NCBI GenBank assembly: GCA_001825035.1
Contig: MHUO01000008.1
Coordinates: 1-54,642, forward strand
DNA from: Candidatus Wildermuthbacteria bacterium RIFOXYD1_FULL_50_12
GTDB taxonomy: Bacteria; Patescibacteriota; Minisyncoccia; Minisyncoccales; UBA10102
Direction: 5' to 3'
Length of the DNA: 54,642 bases
Positions 26,310-47,757 of the stretch are shown here, one piece after another. The notes under the pieces are model-generated. The model was not told the origin of the DNA and searched no databases. It worked only from the letters and a program-made list of their open reading frames with translations. Every line of letters begins with the position of its first letter. Position 1 is the first letter of the stretch. The position numbers and the translations under genes are program-made.

Positions 26310-26380
26310 CGGGATGTGGTGTAACGGCAGCACGCGTCCTTTGGGAGGATGTAGTTCGAGTTCGAATCTCGACATCCCGA
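26310..26380 (+). tRNA. tRNA-Pro(UGG)
   Basis: C1:G72 acceptor cgggatg/catcccg; anticodon loop ttTGGga. Confidence 0.88.
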
Positions 26381-26381
26381 C

Positions 26382-26452
26382 GCGGGTGTAGCACAGTGGT
26401 AGTGCATCAGGTTTCCAACCTGACCACGTGGGTTCGATTCCCATCACCCGCT
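26382..26452 (+). tRNA. tRNA-Gly(UCC)
   Basis: Acceptor gcgggtg/cacccgc; anticodon loop ttTCCaa. Confidence 0.9.
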
Positions 26453-26464
26453 CCACAAAAAATC

Positions 26465-26505
26465 AAGATGAAACGAAAAATGGGAAAGCCGGCTTTCCTA
26501 TTTTT
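26465..26505. repeat. Left copy of 41-bp direct repeat (terminator hairpin)
   Basis: aagatgaaacgaaaaatgggaaagccggctttcctattttt; 39/41 identical to 30971-31011. Confidence 0.9.
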
Positions 26506-26758
26506 GGGGGCGGTACACCACCCCTCTCCCGATATCACCCACCTGCTCAATCTTTCCCTCTTTCTCCAGTTCTGTTGTATAGTTTACGGCCGATCGGCGC
26601 GAGACGGCCAAAACCGCACGGATGTCGGAATTGCTCAGTTCTCCTTTTCCCTGCAAGAGGTCAAGAATCTTTTGCTTGTTGTCTTGCTTCTGCACGGTCT
26701 GGTCCAGCACAAACCCGCAAATCCCCATGGCTTTTTCCCTCGCCGGCCTATACAGCAA
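26498..26758 (-). CDS. Small winged-helix DNA-binding protein
   Basis: QKILDLLQGKGELSNSDIRAVLAVSRRSAVNYTTELEKEGKIEQVGDIGRGVVYRPQK; possible start 26728. Confidence 0.7.
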   Translation of the reverse strand: MLYRPAREKAMGICGFVLDQTVQKQDNKQKILDLLQGKGELSNSDIRAVLAVSRRSAVNYTTELEKEGKIEQVGDIGRGVVYRPQK

Positions 26759-26828
26759 CTACAGCAACAGAACAACAACCCCAATTCCGATAACAACCAA
26801 AATCGTCTGGGGCATCTTTCACTCTATC

Positions 26829-26856
26829 AAAAAACCGCCCTTTTGGCGATTTTTTG
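26829..26856 (-). terminator. Intrinsic terminator
   Basis: Minus strand aatcgccaaaagggcggttttttg. Confidence 0.7.
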
Positions 26857-26892
26857 CCCGCCTGTCGGAGATAGGACGAAAGGAAGTTTGAG

Positions 26893-27186
26893 CTACGTCA
26901 ATCGTTTCTTCCCTTTATACAGTTTTATCTTGCGTTCTTCTCCATACTCCAATGCTGGTTCGGTGAATCCGCTTTTGCTAATAAACTTCGTTACGCCCTT
27001 CCTACGCGCCTTCACAACTTCTGGTCTGGGGACTGGCTGTTTCCAATCCTTGATTTCCAGCTTCTGCCTTCCTTTCTCTGCATCAGGATTACCTGGGCCA
27101 CCTATGTGTTTTGCCCCATGATCCCTCGCCTTCTTTCTTTCGTAGTTGACGCCTCGCCTTTGAGGCTGACCTTTCCTGTTATTCAT
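26893..27186 (-). CDS. Putative minimal PD-(D/E)XK nuclease-like protein
   Basis: HIGGPGNPDAEKGRQKLEIKDWKQPVPRPEVVKARRKG: GG..NPD..EIK arrangement. Confidence 0.5.
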   Translation of the reverse strand: MNNRKGQPQRRGVNYERKKARDHGAKHIGGPGNPDAEKGRQKLEIKDWKQPVPRPEVVKARRKGVTKFISKSGFTEPALEYGEERKIKLYKGKKRLT

Positions 27187-27206
27187 AAATAATATAGAAG
27201 GTTCTT

Positions 27207-28526
27207 TTATGGCTTATACTTACTCGACGTTTCCCCACTTTCTTCCTCCTCGTTGTCTTCTTCGAGTTCTCCAGCTTCAAGTGCTGGAATAGACTGCATT
27301 GAAGGACCAATAAGCCCCTGCAAATCACCATGCATCCCCGCAATCGCCGCAATAACTCTGCCCATATCTTTCTCACGTTTTGCCCAGCGAGTTATCGTCA
27401 GCCGTTTCTCCTTATCTAGATCTTGCTTCATACCATTGAATGTTTCAACTGCCGCTTGTACTCGTTGCGTGAACTCTGGGCCTGTCAGGTATCTGAATAG
27501 AACTTCCATCTTTTCGTCCTTGCTTTCTGCTGCTAGCTTGATTTGAGCCACTCGTATAAGTGAAGAACGAAGCAAATTCGCAACTCCAAATACAAAAGCT
27601 GGTTTGGTTATCCATACTCCATTTCGTGGTCCGAAACTGGAAATATCCTTTGGCAATGTCTCTGTTACAAATACTGCGAGATCTGCCTTCGCTTCTCTTT
27701 GGTCGTCTTTGAGCTTTGTAATCCACTCCTCGTTCCAATTTTTAGTTCTCTTTGATTCCCATAGAATCGCACCGCAAGCACTTCCCCTTGGCGTATAAAC
27801 TCCCTGTAAAACGTCAGCGCCCCCTACTCCCTTTGCAACTGGCTGAATGTTATCTGAGGGGAAACTATCTTTGAGCAACTCTTCTAAGTCAAGCTCTTGT
27901 GCTTCGCCCTGTAGTTGTTGCGAACCCTGCTCAGCCTTTCTCTTGAGATCCTCAATTTGTTTCCGCATGCCAACCATCTGTATCTCCTTTTCCTTGTCCG
28001 TGAGCCGGTGTTCTTCCAAGACCTTCTCCGTAGCTATTTCTTCTATCTTTTTCCGCTCTGTATCAACCCGGCGAACAACTTCTACCTCAAGGTCCTTTTT
28101 CGCTTCTTCAAGCTTATGCGTTCGTTGCAGTAGCTCAAGTTCTTTTTTTCGATTCTCTTCAATCTTTCGATCTTTCTCTTTTATCTGGTTCTCTGCATCC
28201 AAGAGCTTAACGGCGAGGTCTTCTTCTGCCTTCTTCTTTGCGGTAAGTTCCATCTTTGGCCTCTCCTGTTTCAATTGTTCCTGAACCTGTTGGTCGATAC
28301 TCTGCTGTGTTTCAAGGAGCTTTGCCTCTTGCTCCTTTAGTTTTTTAGCTTGTGCAAGTATATTCTTCTCGCGCTCGGCATATCTCTTTTCAGACTCCTT
28401 TTCTATCTGTTCTGCCAAGCTATGTTTGATAGCTTCAGAAACAGGAAAAAATTCCCCGCATTTGGGGCATACCACTTGGTCCAGACTATTTTGGGATTCC
28501 TGTTCTGGCATATAGAATTTAGACAT
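27207..28526 (-). CDS. DUF2130 family protein (coiled coil plus nuclease-like domain)
   Basis: VCPKCGEFFPVSEAI, long coiled coil, GSACGAILWESKRTKNWNEEWITKLKDDQREAKADLAVFVTE. Confidence 0.88.
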   Translation of the reverse strand: MSKFYMPEQESQNSLDQVVCPKCGEFFPVSEAIKHSLAEQIEKESEKRYAEREKNILAQAKKLKEQEAKLLETQQSIDQQVQEQLKQERPKMELTAKKKAEEDLAVKLLDAENQIKEKDRKIEENRKKELELLQRTHKLEEAKKDLEVEVVRRVDTERKKIEEIATEKVLEEHRLTDKEKEIQMVGMRKQIEDLKRKAEQGSQQLQGEAQELDLEELLKDSFPSDNIQPVAKGVGGADVLQGVYTPRGSACGAILWESKRTKNWNEEWITKLKDDQREAKADLAVFVTETLPKDISSFGPRNGVWITKPAFVFGVANLLRSSLIRVAQIKLAAESKDEKMEVLFRYLTGPEFTQRVQAAVETFNGMKQDLDKEKRLTITRWAKREKDMGRVIAAIAGMHGDLQGLIGPSMQSIPALEAGELEEDNEEEESGETSSKYKP

Positions 28527-28635
28527 AACGATATAAATTTCCAGTTTCTCCAGGTGCCACAAAGGGATGTGGAAAACTTCGCTTGCGTTAGGTTTTCATT
28601 AGGTAGTATAATTGAAGCAAGAAAAAGAGTCAAGT

Positions 28636-29244
28636 ATGCCGACCCAAAAACCGACAAAGAAGCAACGCGAAGTCCTGGATTTCATTAAGCGTTTCCAGAA
28701 GAAACACCACTACTCTCCTTCTCTCAAGGAAATTGCAAAACATTTTGGCGTTTCCGCTCCAACCATCCATCAGCATGTCCAAGCATTAAGAAAGAAAGGT
28801 TACGTCAGTGCCGCCAAAGGAGAAAAACGCTCAGTTGAAGCATACGAATTCGGACAGAGCGAAATAGCCACAATTCCTCTCATGGGACTAATCCCCGCAG
28901 GCGGCCCCATAGAGGCAATCAGCAACCCCGAACCCATCCAAGTGCCAAAAAGTATGCTCTCGCGCACAGGAAGACACTATGCTCTAGAGGTGAGAGGACG
29001 CAGTATGATTGAGGAAGGCATATCAGATGGAGATATTGTAATTATCCGCGACCAGCCCACCGTTGAGAACGGAGAGAGCGCAGTCGCCTATCTGCCAGAG
29101 AAAAACGAAGTAACCCTAAAGAAAATATACCACGAAGGCGACCGAATTCGGCTCCAGCCGGCTAACAAAGAAATGCAATCTTTCTACGAAAAAAAAGTTG
29201 ATATACAAGGAAAAGTGCTAGGGGTAATTAGAAAGGTAAAGTAA
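28636..29244 (+). CDS. lexA: LexA-like repressor
   Basis: KKQREVLDFIKRFQKKHHYSPSLKEIAKHFGVSAPTIHQHV, cleavage site IPAGGP, catalytic GRSMIEEGI and VTLKKIY. Confidence 0.93.
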   Translation: MPTQKPTKKQREVLDFIKRFQKKHHYSPSLKEIAKHFGVSAPTIHQHVQALRKKGYVSAAKGEKRSVEAYEFGQSEIATIPLMGLIPAGGPIEAISNPEPIQVPKSMLSRTGRHYALEVRGRSMIEEGISDGDIVIIRDQPTVENGESAVAYLPEKNEVTLKKIYHEGDRIRLQPANKEMQSFYEKKVDIQGKVLGVIRKVK

Positions 29245-29278
29245 TTTATATTATTATGTATAGTAGCAAAACAATACT

Positions 29279-30160
29279 ATGACACAAGAAATCAATTCAC
29301 CATTTCGATACGCCGGAGGGAAATTTTATGCCCGAAAACTTATCGCTGAGTATATTCCCGAACACGATTTTTATATAGAACCATTTGCTGGTGGGGCCTC
29401 TATTTTCTTTGCAAAGAGTAAAGTGGACAAAAACTTACTTAATGATATTGATGAAGACTTGATAAATTGTTTAATGACAATCCGGGATCACTCAGACGTG
29501 TTGATTGAGAGATTAAAAGGTGAACAAGCAACGAAAGAAAGACACGCGTATTACAAAAATGAATATAGGCCGAGAACCAAACTAGATCGCGCTGTGCGTT
29601 GGTTTTATGTAAACCGTACTTCCTACTCAGGAATTATGAAAACACAAAATTGTTATTGGGGTTATGGTGAAAAATACAGTATGAGGCCAGAAAATTGGCC
29701 AAGGAATATTTTACGAACGTCGGCAAAATTGCAAGAAGTAGAACTTACTTCTTGCGACTTTGAAAAAGTTATAGAAGAAGCTCCCGATAATTCTTTTCTG
29801 TTTATCGACCCACCATATTTCAATGCTGATCAAGAGAAATTCTACGTGCATTCGTTTGAAAAAGAGGATCACTTTCGCTTAAGCAGGACTCTTAAAAAAC
29901 ATAGCGGACGGTTGAAATTTTTGCTCACCTATGATGATAGTCCTGAGGTGCACGAATTGTATAATTGGGTACATGCAATTTATGAAAAAACTTGGAATTA
30001 TACAATTAATCGTACAGATGACCAGAAAAACGGAACAAACATAAAGGGAGCCCGGTACAAAGGGCACGAATTATTTATCGTAAATTACGATCCCTTCAAA
30101 CAAAGAAACTTATTCGACAGTACCTTAGATACCCAAAAAATCCTTGAAAAAGTTCTCTGA
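29279..30160 (+). CDS. DNA adenine methyltransferase (Dam/DpnM-like)
   Basis: SPFRYAGGKFYARKLIAEYIPEHDFYIEPFAGGASIFF, FLFIDPPYFNADQE. Confidence 0.93.
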   Translation: MTQEINSPFRYAGGKFYARKLIAEYIPEHDFYIEPFAGGASIFFAKSKVDKNLLNDIDEDLINCLMTIRDHSDVLIERLKGEQATKERHAYYKNEYRPRTKLDRAVRWFYVNRTSYSGIMKTQNCYWGYGEKYSMRPENWPRNILRTSAKLQEVELTSCDFEKVIEEAPDNSFLFIDPPYFNADQEKFYVHSFEKEDHFRLSRTLKKHSGRLKFLLTYDDSPEVHELYNWVHAIYEKTWNYTINRTDDQKNGTNIKGARYKGHELFIVNYDPFKQRNLFDSTLDTQKILEKVL

Positions 30161-30928
30161 ATTCTCAGCGGCCACCCACGGTGCTTCTGGCAATCTCTTA
30201 CCCTGCTTAAATCTTATAATGGGGTAATTTGGAATAAAGCCGCACGTCGTTTTTGCCTTACACTTCTTTCTTGTACATTGAACACCATTTTTACCTTTTA
30301 TAGAAAGTGCATTGGCGGGAGCAATATACATTCTGTTAAAAGCAAAATCTTTAAGATTATTCTCGGTCTTCGCCCTGCGCAAAGTTTCCAAGAAAGCGAT
30401 CCCTTCCTGTGAGGGCGCCCAGTCAAAAAACCCACTGCTATTTGTCTCGTAAAATGCGTTGCCAATTGAGGTAACAACGAAGTCAAAATCTTCTGGACGG
30501 TATTGATCGTTATGTACTGTAAGCTGTTTTTCGCTGACTCCGAATTTTGGTGCTAGGTGTCTTACCATGCTCTCTCCCAGTGTTCTACTTCGCATACACT
30601 TTACCCTAATTATACTGTCTCCCGTTTGGAGTAACCTAAACCCTCCTTTCGCCGCAAGCTTGCATTCAAGACGAGCTTCCTTCTGAGTTTCTTTGTGGCG
30701 CACAATAACATCGATATCATGAAGCCCTTGCTGTGCATTCATCGGAATTTTCTCAACCTCCCAAGTTTGTGCTGATAGTATATCTTCAAGAGCTAACTTC
30801 ATATTGAACTCAAAAGCCTTTCCGCGAATCATCGGGACCACCTTCGGCTCATACAGGGTATCTGATAAGTATTCGAGGGGAATATTGTATCTATAGCAGT
30901 ACTCTTTTATTTTATCTTGCCAGTTCAT
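30125..30928 (-). CDS. Putative type II restriction endonuclease partner
   Basis: Convergent with and overlapping the methylase; PD-(D/E)XK-like GLHDIDVIVRHKETQKEARLECKLA; C-terminal Cys motif CTRKKCKAKTTC. Confidence 0.7.
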   Translation of the reverse strand: MNWQDKIKEYCYRYNIPLEYLSDTLYEPKVVPMIRGKAFEFNMKLALEDILSAQTWEVEKIPMNAQQGLHDIDVIVRHKETQKEARLECKLAAKGGFRLLQTGDSIIRVKCMRSRTLGESMVRHLAPKFGVSEKQLTVHNDQYRPEDFDFVVTSIGNAFYETNSSGFFDWAPSQEGIAFLETLRRAKTENNLKDFAFNRMYIAPANALSIKGKNGVQCTRKKCKAKTTCGFIPNYPIIRFKQGKRLPEAPWVAAENSENFFKDFLGI

Positions 30929-30970
30929 GAATTCACCCTACCGAAAAACTAGCGCAAAAGCAACGGGATA

Positions 30971-31011
30971 AAGACGAAACGAAAAATGGGAAAGCCGGCT
31001 TTCCCATTTTT
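30971..31011. repeat. Right copy of 41-bp direct repeat (terminator hairpin)
   Basis: aagacgaaacgaaaaatgggaaagccggctttcccattttt. Confidence 0.9.
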
Positions 31012-31034
31012 CGTTTGATGGATTTTGCGCAGGA

Positions 31035-32567
31035 TTATCTCGCGTACTCCACAAAACGATTCTCACGCACCAAGGTTACTTTAATCTCGCCTGGATAATG
31101 GAGTTCTTCTTCAATTCTATTGGCAATGTCCCTCGCGAGCTGGTGGGAGCCCTTGTCGTCAATCTTTTCCGGATGCACGAACACGCGAATTTCCCGTCCC
31201 GCCTGAATGGCGTACGCCTTTTCCACGCCCTCAAAGGACGAGGCGAGGGACTCCAGCTCCCCGATGCGCTTTAAGTAATTCTCCAGCGTGTCCTTTCTCG
31301 CGCCGGGCCGGGAAGCCGAGATTGCGTCCGCCGTCTGCACCAGCACCGCTTCAACGGACTCGTAGGGATAATCTCCGTGGTGCGACTTCATGGCTGAAAT
31401 CACCTCTTTTTCCACTCCGAACTTCTCTAAGATGTGCATGCCGATTTCCACGTGCGAACCCTCCACCTGATGGTCAAGCGCTTTCCCGATATCGTGGAAC
31501 AACCCTGCCTTCTTTGCCACAGCGAGGTCAGCTCCAATTTCAGCCGCAAGCGCCGAAGCCAAATACGCCACTTCTATGGAATGCAAAAGCACATTCTGCC
31601 CGTAACTCGTGCGAAACTTCATCCTCCCCAAAAGCTGGATGAGCTTAGGATCCAACCCCACAATTCCGAGATCGTACGTGGCCGCCTCCCCGGCCTCCTT
31701 CATTTGCCCTTCTATTTCCGCCTGGACCTTGGCAACCTCCTCTTCAACCCGCGCGGGGTGGATTCTTCCATCTTTAATCAAGCGCTCCAGCGCCACTTTG
31801 GCAATATGCCGGCGGAGCGGGTCAAACCCGGAGATCACCACGGCTTCGGGCGTCTCGTCCACCACAATCTCCACACCGGCCAAGCGCTCCAAAGAACGGA
31901 TATTCCTTCCTTCTTTTCCGATGATTTTCCCCTTAAGGTCCTCGGACGGCAAAACCACTGTGGTCGTGGTAATCTCCTGGGCTTGGGAAACCGCCGTCTT
32001 TTGAACCGCGTACGCCACTATCTCTTTTGCCCTTCTGTCAAAACGCTCCTGTCCCTCTGCTTCCAGCTTGCGAATTCTCCCCCTCAAATCCTGCTCGTAT
32101 TCCTTCTCCGCGCGCGAAAACAGCTCCTCTCGCGCCTCCTGGCGGGAAAGCTGAGCTACTTCCTCCAGTTTTTTAGAAACCTCTTCTTGCGCCTTCTCCA
32201 GATTTTTTCCGATTGCCTGGAGCCGTTCCGCTTTACCCCTCAGGTCTTCTTCCCTTGCTTCAAAATCAGAAATTCTCGCTGCCAGTGTTTCTTCGCGCCG
32301 CAAGAGGAGCTGTTCGGTTTTGAGAAGGGCTTGTCTCTGCCGCTCTTGCTCTGCTTTTGCAGACGAGACAATCTCTTGTGCCTGGACCTTGGCCGAAGAA
32401 ATAATTTCTTCCCGCTGGCCTTCCGCTTCCTTAACTTTCTTTTGAAGTTTCTGCTCTAAAGTCCCCGCCTGTCTTCTGGCTATGGACTGCCGAGCAAAGT
32501 ATCCGAGGATAGATCCTATGGCAAGCGAAAGCACCCCTGCCATAAGCAAGATCAATTGTTCTGTCAT
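31035..32567 (-). CDS. rny: Ribonuclease Y
   Basis: N-terminal TM, coiled coil, VVLPSEDLKGKIIGKEGRNIRSLERLAGVEIVVDETPEAVVISGFDP KH, HD domain AGLFHDIGKALDH. Confidence 0.96.
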   Translation of the reverse strand: MTEQLILLMAGVLSLAIGSILGYFARQSIARRQAGTLEQKLQKKVKEAEGQREEIISSAKVQAQEIVSSAKAEQERQRQALLKTEQLLLRREETLAARISDFEAREEDLRGKAERLQAIGKNLEKAQEEVSKKLEEVAQLSRQEAREELFSRAEKEYEQDLRGRIRKLEAEGQERFDRRAKEIVAYAVQKTAVSQAQEITTTTVVLPSEDLKGKIIGKEGRNIRSLERLAGVEIVVDETPEAVVISGFDPLRRHIAKVALERLIKDGRIHPARVEEEVAKVQAEIEGQMKEAGEAATYDLGIVGLDPKLIQLLGRMKFRTSYGQNVLLHSIEVAYLASALAAEIGADLAVAKKAGLFHDIGKALDHQVEGSHVEIGMHILEKFGVEKEVISAMKSHHGDYPYESVEAVLVQTADAISASRPGARKDTLENYLKRIGELESLASSFEGVEKAYAIQAGREIRVFVHPEKIDDKGSHQLARDIANRIEEELHYPGEIKVTLVRENRFVEYAR

Positions 32568-40762: not shown

Positions 40763-42909
40763 CGAATTTTACCTGCCAGCTTGGCGAAAAAAGCTTCCAT
40801 ATAGAGCTTCCCAACTGGGCCGAACAAGCAAACGGAAACGTCCTCGTAAAATCGGGGGAGACGGTTACGCTTGTTACCGCGGTCATGGGAAACGAACTCC
40901 CCAATCAGGGGTTTTTTCCGCTTACCGTGGATTATGAGGAGCGGTTTTACGCCGCGGGAAAAATTTTGGGATCGCGATTTATGCGCAGGGAGGGAAGGCC
41001 TTCGGACGAAGCCATTATCACCGCGCGGCTCATAGACCGCGCCATCAGACCCCTCTTCCCCAAAAATTTCCTCCGCGAAGTGCAGGTTATCTGCACGTGC
41101 CTCTCGTGGGACGCGCAAAACGACCCCGACCTTTCCGGATTGCTCGGCGCGTCCTTAGCGCTTTCGCTGTCCAACATTCCGTGGAAGGGGCCAATCGCGG
41201 CGGTCAGGATAGGAAGAGTGCAGGGGAATTTTGTGCTCAACCCCGCGTACCAAGAGCGCGCAGAAAGCGATCTGGATTTCGTGCTGGCGGGCCAGCAGCT
41301 CGCTTCGCCGCGAGGCGAGCAAGACGGCGAGCTGGTGTTCAACATGATAGAAGCCGAAGGCGACGAAATTCCGGAAGAAACGTATGAACAGGCCCTTGCT
41401 TTTGCCGAGCCCTTTCTTATTCAGCTCTTGGAATTCCAGAAACAAATTATCGCCCGCGGCGGCGTGCAAAAGATACTTCATAAAGAGAGAGATTCTTCGT
41501 TTGAGGATTTTGAAAAAGAATTCCGGGCGTGGCTGGATCCCAAACTTGAACAAGCCCTGTTTCAGGGAGAGAAACAGAAGCGGATGGCGTCTTTGGACGA
41601 GGTGAAAAAAGAATACACCGCCCTCGTGACAGAAAAATACAGCGACCTGCCTGCGCAGGCAGGCGCACAAATTCAAAAATATGCGGAACTTTTCTTTGAA
41701 GAAGAAATTGACCGCATTGTGCACAAAGGGATTTTGGAGCGAGATCAGCGCGTAGACGACCGGAAGCCCGACGAGATTCGACCCCTCGCAGCCAATGCCG
41801 GCTTTCTCCCCAGAACGCATGGATCTGGCCTGTTTGAGCGCGGCCAAACCCGCACCCTTTCCATTTTGACGCTGGGGGCACCCGGCGACCAACGACTTTT
41901 GGAGGGCATGGAGTTTATCGGGAAAAAGCGCTTTATGCATCACTATAACTTTCCTCCGTACGCGCCCGGAGAGGTAAAACCCATGCGCGGCCCCGGACGC
42001 AGGGAAATCGGACACGGAATACTGGCGGAAAAATCGCTCTTCCCCGTCATCCCGGCCCCGGAAGAATTTCCTTACACCATACGCATCGTAACCGAAGTGG
42101 TTTCTTCAAACGGCTCCACATCCATGGCCGCAGTATGCTCATCTACCTTGGCGCTGCTGGATGCGGGCGTTCCCATTAAGCGGCCGGTTGCCGGCATTTC
42201 CATGGGGCTTATGAAGGGCGAAGGGGACGCATACAAACTCTTAACCGACATTCAAGGGCCAGAAGACAAGCACGGCGATATGGACTTTAAGGTTGCAGGC
42301 ACCAAGCAGGGAATCTGCGCCATTCAGCTTGATGTAAAGGTAACGGGGATTACCAAGCAAATGTTTAAAGAAACGCTGGCGGCGGCAAGGAAGGCGCGCT
42401 GGCGCATTATTGACGAAGTGATCGCAAAAGTGTTGCCGGAGCCCCGCGCCGAACTTTCTCCCTGGGCGCCCAAAATCGCCACCTTTAATATCAACCCAGA
42501 AAAAATCGGCCTGCTTATTGGCTCCGGAGGCAAAACCATCAATCGCATTTCAGAGGAATACGGCGTGGAAATTGATATTGAAGAAACTGGGCAGGTATTC
42601 ATAACCAGCCAAGACAAAGAACAACTCGCCAAAGCGGTGGAGTTCGTGCAAAACCTCACGCACGAAGTGCAGGTGGGGGACATCTTTGTGGGAAAAGTGA
42701 AGCGCATTCTGGAGTTTGGCGCATTTGTGGAGATACCGGGAGGCCAGGAAGGTCTCGTGCACATTTCCCAGCTTGCCCCCCATCGCGTGAACAAGGTGCA
42801 AGACGTGGTGAAACTCGGGCAAACCGTTTCGGTAAAAGTTATTGAAATTGACGAGCTCGGACGAGTCAACTTATCGATGAAGGAAACACGCGAACACCAG
42901 CAAGGGTAA
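40738..42909 (+). CDS. pnp: Polyribonucleotide nucleotidyltransferase
   Basis: DYEERFYAAGKILGSRFMRREGRPSDEAIITARLIDRAIRPLFP, EVVSSNGSTSMAAVC, IGSGGKTINRI KH, S1. Confidence 0.97.
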   Translation: MASQDFEMTNFTCQLGEKSFHIELPNWAEQANGNVLVKSGETVTLVTAVMGNELPNQGFFPLTVDYEERFYAAGKILGSRFMRREGRPSDEAIITARLIDRAIRPLFPKNFLREVQVICTCLSWDAQNDPDLSGLLGASLALSLSNIPWKGPIAAVRIGRVQGNFVLNPAYQERAESDLDFVLAGQQLASPRGEQDGELVFNMIEAEGDEIPEETYEQALAFAEPFLIQLLEFQKQIIARGGVQKILHKERDSSFEDFEKEFRAWLDPKLEQALFQGEKQKRMASLDEVKKEYTALVTEKYSDLPAQAGAQIQKYAELFFEEEIDRIVHKGILERDQRVDDRKPDEIRPLAANAGFLPRTHGSGLFERGQTRTLSILTLGAPGDQRLLEGMEFIGKKRFMHHYNFPPYAPGEVKPMRGPGRREIGHGILAEKSLFPVIPAPEEFPYTIRIVTEVVSSNGSTSMAAVCSSTLALLDAGVPIKRPVAGISMGLMKGEGDAYKLLTDIQGPEDKHGDMDFKVAGTKQGICAIQLDVKVTGITKQMFKETLAAARKARWRIIDEVIAKVLPEPRAELSPWAPKIATFNINPEKIGLLIGSGGKTINRISEEYGVEIDIEETGQVFITSQDKEQLAKAVEFVQNLTHEVQVGDIFVGKVKRILEFGAFVEIPGGQEGLVHISQLAPHRVNKVQDVVKLGQTVSVKVIEIDELGRVNLSMKETREHQQG
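41646..41663. repeat. Palindromic element CCTGCCTGCGCAGGCAGG in pnp
   Basis: Perfect 18-bp palindrome identical to 47335-47352; encodes LPAQAG. Confidence 0.88.
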
Positions 42910-46878: not shown

Positions 46879-47757
46879 ATGCGCTTGGCTTCTCCCCGTG
46901 TTGTCAAAGAAATCCTTGCCAAACAAAGCATCAAACCCAGCCGCGGCCTTGGGCAGAATTTTTTAATTGACGGCAATGTCGTGAAAAAGCTGGCTGACAC
47001 AGCCAACATAGACCCCAACGACACTGTGTTGGAAATCGGCCCGGGCATTGGCACCCTCACTCAAGAACTTGCTCCCCGCGCCAAAAAAGTAATCGCCGTG
47101 GAAAAAGACCGAAAAATGGTTGAAATACTCAAAGAAACCCTCGCGGGGCTCCAAAACATAGAAATTGTATGCACAGATGTCTTAAAACTCGATACCCAGC
47201 CCAAGGATTGCTCCAGAGGCGCATCCGCCTTGGGCGGAGGTCCGCCTCGGGCGGAAAACTACAAAGTAGTGGCAAACTTGCCCTACTATATTACAGCTCC
47301 TGTCATACGGAAATTTTTGGAGGGGGAACACAAACCTGCCTGCGCAGGCAGGCCAGAATCTTTGACGCTTATTGTGCAGAAAGAGGTTGCCCAACGAATC
47401 TGCGCAAAACCTCCGGATATGAACATCCTTGCCGTATCCGTGCAAATATACGCAGTGCCGAAAATTATCGCATATATAAAGAAAACGTCGTTCTGGCCTC
47501 AGCCAAAAGTTGACGCCGCCATACTGCAAATCACACCTCTTGCACACCCTTATCCCATACATTTCCCCAAATTCTTCACAATCGTGAAAGCCGGGTTTAA
47601 ACAGCCGAGAAAGCAGCTTATGAATAACTTGTCTGTGGGGTTTGGTTTTTCGCGGCAAAAAACAGAACAATGGCTTTACAAAAACAATATCCACTCCACT
47701 CGCCGCGCCGAAACCCTATCCTTGCAGGATTGGATAAACCTTGCAAATACCTTATAA
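46879..47757 (+). CDS. rsmA: 16S rRNA dimethyladenosine transferase
   Basis: SRGLGQNFLIDGNVVKKLADTANIDPNDTVLEIGPGIGTLTQEL, NYKVVANLPYYITAPVIR. Confidence 0.95.
   Translation: MRLASPRVVKEILAKQSIKPSRGLGQNFLIDGNVVKKLADTANIDPNDTVLEIGPGIGTLTQELAPRAKKVIAVEKDRKMVEILKETLAGLQNIEIVCTDVLKLDTQPKDCSRGASALGGGPPRAENYKVVANLPYYITAPVIRKFLEGEHKPACAGRPESLTLIVQKEVAQRICAKPPDMNILAVSVQIYAVPKIIAYIKKTSFWPQPKVDAAILQITPLAHPYPIHFPKFFTIVKAGFKQPRKQLMNNLSVGFGFSRQKTEQWLYKNNIHSTRRAETLSLQDWINLANTL
47224..47255. repeat. Tandem palindromic elements in rsmA
   Basis: tccgcc-ttg-ggcgga (47224-47238) and tccgcc-tcg-ggcgga (47241-47255). Confidence 0.8.
47335..47352. repeat. Palindromic element CCTGCCTGCGCAGGCAGG in rsmA
   Basis: Perfect 18-bp palindrome; encodes PACAGR. 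Confidence 0.88.

Follow-up and report, generated by a model that had tools for sequence, protein, structure and literature searches.

Restriction–modification (RM) systems have been described to insert with long and variable target duplications in Helicobacter pylori and others (Nobusato 2000 and Furuta 2010, as relayed by PMC3031569 and PMC3874152). By analogy, these insertions appear to be the nearest precedent for the island analyzed in this study, which lies in a 54,642-nt stretch of DNA (the window) from a Candidatus Wildermuthbacteria bacterium. The common feature is a direct repeat of the target at both island ends, which stands beyond the controls; however, the described duplications measure roughly 100 bp, whereas here the repeat comprises 44 nt of an intergenic terminator hairpin and the island has three further genes. 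The island is also comparable with the microcin H47 island of E. coli (PMC5426353), which is likewise small, bounded by short direct repeats and without an encoded recombinase; excision was detected there, whereas the present island is known from sequence alone.

Concerning regulation, autorepression by the HTH domains of methylases is established in type II RM systems such as SsoII, and unbalanced RM induces the SOS response (both PMC3874152). The island shares with SsoII-type methylases an HTH linked to a methylase, a predicted repression and a predicted operator over its own promoter. Unlike in those enzymes, the HTH here comes with a full S24 self-cleavage domain, which makes the regulator a LexA, and methylases of at least four classes are linked to this single LexA family. 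C-protein-controlled RM systems similarly have a dedicated regulator adjoining the RM genes, but C proteins are small HTH proteins lacking a protease domain, whereas the regulator here is LexA and its operator is not generally found upstream of the restriction endonuclease (REase) gene. The LexA boxes of alphaproteobacteria are direct repeats of the form GTTC-N7-GTTC. The island LexA resembles the alphaproteobacterial protein in its domain order, cleavage residues and predicted period-11 direct-repeat operator, although members of its family are fused to a methylase or encoded alongside one, and are tied to RM instead of repair genes. In Patescibacteria, a study of genomic islands reported an RM island with no LexA link (PMC12455944).

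As a whole explanation of the locus, we favor, with somewhat better than even confidence, an acquired island whose entry duplicated a 44-nt terminator and whose core is a LexA-controlled type II RM system.

Island and insertion site

The features of the island and its flanks are listed below, with positions in the window.

26310–26381, + strand: tRNA-Pro (tgg; ARAGORN), left flank; adjoins an HK gene in relatives (conserved)
26382–26455, + strand: tRNA-Gly (tcc; ARAGORN), left flank of the site; adjoins rny or other cargo in 19 relatives
26462–26505, no strand: left 44-nt repeat copy; bidirectional terminator of the tRNAs (+) and of the HTH/DUF2130 operon (−)
26498–26758, − strand: winged-HTH protein (HTH_24; Pfam), with its stop codon within the left repeat
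26893–27186, − strand: 97-aa Mrr_cat-like (PF04471) nuclease-type protein, a marginal match (Pfam E 4e-4, 20.9 bits against a cut-off of 21)
27207–28562, − strand: DUF2130 protein (PF09903; Pfam E 1.6e-65)
28568–28576, + strand: TGTGGAAAA, a variant DnaA-box-like element upstream of lexA
28586–28603, + strand: CGTTAGGTTTTCATTAGG, predicted LexA operator, a period-11 direct repeat just upstream of TATAAT
28636–29244, + strand: LexA-family repressor (TIGR00498 E 5e-52), with cleavage site A88-G89 and catalytic S123/K162 (conservation among 41 proteins)
29279–30160, + strand: D12/Dam-type DNA adenine methyltransferase (PF02086; PADLOC MTase_II PDLC03247, E 6e-78)
30125–30928, − strand: type II restriction endonuclease, convergent with the methylase (PADLOC REase_II PDLC03516, E 4e-83)
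30937–30954, − strand: CGCTAGTTTTTCGGTAGG, a suggestive operator-like site (14/18) upstream of the REase, best of 66 tiles
30968–31011, no strand: right repeat copy, inside a perfect 40-bp palindrome (30977–31016); terminator of rny
31035–32567, − strand: rny (RNase Y; Pfam), right flank; present in 57/60 relatives

The earlier note on this DNA had named the tRNA-Pro and tRNA-Gly genes, rny and six interior genes, and the ARAGORN, Pfam, PADLOC and TIGR00498 results agree with it. Its naming of a methylase, LexA and a putative restriction enzyme was likewise right, while it missed that the three form a single RM unit, of a LexA-linked type that recurs.

The island interior spans 26506–30967 (~4.5 kb, six genes). 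The gene order pilC-pilB-RR-HK-tRNA-Pro-tRNA-Gly-rny is conserved widely among relatives, and the regions around rny were read in 20 of the 57 rny-positive ones. The empty tRNA-Gly/rny junctions that the earlier note had proposed to look for were found in 10 relatives, with spacers of 8–112 bp, most of them containing one bidirectional terminator; these are distant relatives, and their terminators are not homologous in sequence to the island repeat. Removing one repeat copy together with the interior, which gives the simple junction postulated by the earlier note, would leave a spacer of 73–74 bp here. In nine other relatives, the spacer is filled with unrelated genes, for example those for a Na/H exchanger, a citrate transporter, a VKOR-type protein or an ABC transporter; the two closest relatives belong to this group and have the Na/H exchanger inside, which counts against the favored explanation. 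The 10 empty and nine otherwise filled spacers therefore indicate that the tRNA-Gly/rny site tolerates insertions and has received them on several occasions.

Among 247 genomes from the order, only this one encodes the REase, and the absence of the enzyme from the other 246 leads us to regard the island as acquired, as the earlier note did in calling it an accessory insertion. In the phylum sample, the REase family occurs in one of 384 genomes, i.e., its own genome only. No match to the REase was obtained in Pfam, and no relative was confirmed by a peptide scan of 85,000 genomes; a homologue with 50% identity lies opposite an adenine methylase on Acinetobacter plasmids of 9.8 kb.

With respect to the left half, an upstream in-frame start of the HTH gene would encode a membrane helix, which is cut off by an in-frame TAG (26759–26761, − strand) situated within a tandemly duplicated 9-mer, GTTGCTGTA. 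A similar TM-plus-HTH protein adjoins the LexA-methylase (LexA-MTase) in genome G209 (locus L113).

The GC content is about 0.43–0.49 in the left half of the island and 0.36–0.42 over the methylase and REase genes, and the closest kin of the island LexA have other neighbours. Both observations would suit a composite island, in which the LexA-MTase-REase unit and the HTH, Mrr-like and DUF2130 genes entered separately, with only the outer event marked by the repeats. On the other hand, a short divergent promoter region with the operator is common to DUF2130 and lexA, and G209 also has a small HTH gene beside its LexA-MTase. We consider this composite origin doubtful, though not far-fetched; it is compatible with the favored acquisition with terminator duplication, and the likelihood that we assign to it does not exclude the other explanations.

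Flanking terminator repeats

The direct repeats were first noted as 41 bp at 26465–26505 and 30971–31011 (39/41 identical); they are present as such, and the match is widest at 44 nt (26462–26505 and 30968–31011, 41/44 identical). Since the repeat core is palindromic, an inverted-repeat reading is also possible (38 nt, 95%); nine further flanking bases outside the palindrome match at seven of nine positions, in the direct orientation only. The left copy equals the palindrome minus the outer CGTTT of the right arm, which is where the island starts. RNA folding yielded −15.9 kcal/mol for the left hairpin (+ strand) and about −24 kcal/mol for the right hairpin on both strands; both copies are therefore taken as terminator hairpins, in line with the bidirectional terminator that the earlier note had placed after the tRNAs and after rny. 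The insertion is not recent, because the two copies differ at three positions.

The repeat score was 35 here, compared with at most 20 in 140 control windows of the same geometry from its own and related genomes. A search with the repeat pattern (up to three mismatches) detected no third site in the 677-kb, 98.8%-complete genome, and pairwise comparison of 51 hairpins from a 209-kb sample of this genome revealed no other pair resembling the island repeats. The exact 21-nt core was found in none of 85,462 other genomes and not in IMG/VR. The hairpin as a genome-wide terminator repeat is thus ruled out in its own genome, where the pair is unique and occupies two sites only; the earlier note's idea that the repeat might flank further cassettes found no example there.

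Dispersed hairpins were nevertheless seen as separate cases. In G209 (L113 and L144–L147), a look-alike hairpin, AACGGCTCAACCTGTTT...TGAGCCGTT, is dispersed at seven places as a repeated terminator family; its copies lie mostly near the ends of core genes, e.g., groEL, and it flanks the LexA-RM unit there as well. In the window, the palindrome CCTGCCTGCGCAGGCAGG occurs identically at 41646–41663 and 47335–47352, and once more in the sampled region L153, as a small dispersed repeat.

At the nine other spacer fillings, no shared end repeats were detected, and the best scores (8–11) were at chance level. Entry with a repeat at the terminator is therefore not general at the tRNA-Gly/rny site, and the repeat belongs to this insertion rather than to the site. 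That all nine of these insertions are repeat-free would also accord with a repeat-free illegitimate recombination, the hairpins having become alike by gene conversion or a terminator having been recruited to insulate rny; another terminator in the genome does have the same outer stem, AAACGAAAAAT. However, the identity extends into the 9-nt non-palindromic flank in the direct orientation only, and the repeat pair is far outside the controls. A repeat-free insertion is therefore judged unlikely.

The earlier note had suggested recombination at the terminator, of which the insertion at that place is sustained, while the role of the repeat as a recombination site is not. Under such a role, the hairpin would be an attachment site, and a circular element with the same 44-nt sequence would have recombined into the terminator and could excise again, by means of a recombinase supplied in trans, a recombinase since lost, or the host Xer proteins. 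The direct repeats at the exact island ends and the flanks fitting attL/attR are what this predicts, and the recombinase-less H47 island excises at short direct repeats (PMC5426353). Against it, the Pfam, PADLOC and TIGR00498 searches found no integrase or recombinase among the interior proteins, the repeat flanks no other cassette in the genome, the nine other fillings of the site have no repeats, and the repeat sequence was encountered in none of the genome and virus collections searched. Moreover, the core is perfectly palindromic, unlike known dif sites. As duplication of the target at insertion explains the same facts, we regard an attachment site as quite improbable.

LexA joined to methylases

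The island contains a methyltransferase gene and a separate, adjoining restriction endonuclease gene, as type II RM systems do. LexA, the D12 methylase and the convergent nuclease constitute a type II RM unit, with cutting and modification predicted from the encoded proteins.

AGNCT was considered as its recognition site, as the observed/expected ratio was 0.27 in the window and the own-genome sample. The depletion is patchy in relatives (0.03, 0.12 and 0.13 in L045, L036 and L118, respectively; median 0.70), and AGNCT was rejected as the recognition site because depletion also occurs in relatives without this REase. These data suggest a pressure targeting AGNCT that is independent of the island RM system.

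The island LexA, which has both LexA_DNA_bind and Peptidase_S24 domains, was searched in 120 genomes, and 40 strong loci were kept and fetched with their flanks, lower-scoring matches (25–30% identity) being left out. These homologous loci (41–61% identity) occur in 28 of 119 relatives. In all 40, either LexA forms the N-terminal part of a protein with a methylase-like C-terminus, or a methylase gene or ORF starts no more than 35 bp downstream of it. Pfam analysis of 38 proteins identified LexA_DNA_bind and S24 in each of the 35 fusions; the methylase models matched in these loci belong to the N6_N4, D12, Eco57I/N6 and C5 families. On the LexA tree, with methylase classes assigned by BLAST and motif, the methylase class switches at least six times, while the fused or separate state switches once. 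The island LexA falls within a supported set of seven unfused LexAs, which stem partly from the same order and partly from other parts of the phylum and whose partners are C5, N6_N4 and D12 methylases.

In most LexA loci, a convergent ORF directly follows the methylase, as in the window. The ORFs behind the methylases, convergent or not, form 23 sequence clusters besides that of the window, a few of them plainly non-nuclease, e.g., second methylases. Among 20 partners tested against the PADLOC REase_II models, 10 matched, the REase role of about half of the tested partners being assigned by position alone. The switches of methylase class and the varied partners therefore indicate that regulator, methylase and nuclease have been shuffled with LexA kept constant. 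In locus L139 (G240), the LexA-methylase fusion is followed in the same direction by a second, D12-type methylase.

In the literature, no description of a LexA-methylase fusion was found among open-access full texts, which does not prove priority, and no record in phage and plasmid collections covers 80% of the LexA-Dam fusion. LexA fused to, or beside, a protective methylase is apparently an undescribed RM group. The genome has no LexA match besides the island LexA, and LexA proteins that stand alone are common in other parts of the phylum. Even so, it is very improbable that lexA is the host SOS repressor located here by chance and unrelated to the RM genes, since its nearest kin, in the same order and in other classes, directly precede methylases of varied class.

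Insertion between flanking repeats was rejected as a rule for LexA-RM loci, as few exceed the controls. Scores clearly above controls were obtained only for the window (35), L134 (99) and L121 (35), the last probably representing paralogous coding sequence, while L113, L116, L105 and L140 scored at or near the control level. In L134 (G024), the repeat is a 114-bp direct repeat of coding sequence located about −1114 and +4370 from LexA, and its position around the LexA-MTase-REase unit resembles RM insertion with a long target duplication. As a separate observation, the LexA-RM loci L106, L131, L133 and L140 lie between inverted repeats of 95–122 bp (122 bp and perfect in L140).

The A-G cleavage site and the catalytic Ser and Lys are kept in 40 of 41 LexA proteins, and a recA gene is present in the genome. 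An upstream 7-mer repeated at period 11 was found in 36 of 38 LexA promoters (25 perfect) versus 40 of 222 other genes (12 perfect), no other repeat period being comparably enriched in the LexA promoters. The repeat typically adjoins a TATAAT-like box. In the island, the predicted operator (28586–28603) also adjoins a promoter-like site of the divergent DUF2130 gene, and the operator-like repeat in the nearest kin of the island LexA is TTTAGGTTATCTTTAGGTAGTATA. DnaA-box-like nonamers (TTATCCACA/TGTGGATAA or a variant) occur near the operator in 30 of 38 LexA-MTase promoters, surveyed across L104–L143, versus nine of 222 other genes. Upstream of the REases in other loci, no general signal for a LexA operator was detected (mean rank 0.53), and direct control of restriction by LexA is for this reason not claimed. 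From the conserved residues and the operator-like repeat, we infer that LexA acts as a damage-released, self-repressing controller of the methylase.

Proposed mechanism and its meaning

According to the favored explanation, the island was acquired horizontally and inserted into the short terminator that separates tRNA-Gly from rny. The 44-nt terminator would have been duplicated upon entry, leaving one copy at each end of the island, so that the tRNAs and rny would each retain a terminator. In the core, LexA and the D12 adenine methylase, predicted to form one operon, face the convergent restriction endonuclease. LexA most likely binds the direct-repeat operator over its own promoter and thereby holds methylase expression down. 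When DNA breaks pile up, through damage or through restriction outrunning methylation, RecA filaments would form and LexA would cut itself; the resulting increase in methylase would then protect the chromosome.

More broadly, we tentatively propose, as a possibility rather than an expectation, that the type II RM systems of Patescibacteria include a modular class built from one damage-cleaved LexA family, exchangeable methylases of four or more classes and many unrelated nucleases, in which breaks caused by under-methylation raise the protective methylase.

With this locus, terminator hairpins join the sites at which RM islands enter, and its relatives clearly illustrate how methylases and nucleases are exchanged in very small genomes while the regulator stays the same. 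If the LexA link functions as proposed, it would couple DNA damage directly to RM control and would be one way in which a mobile RM system spares its host.
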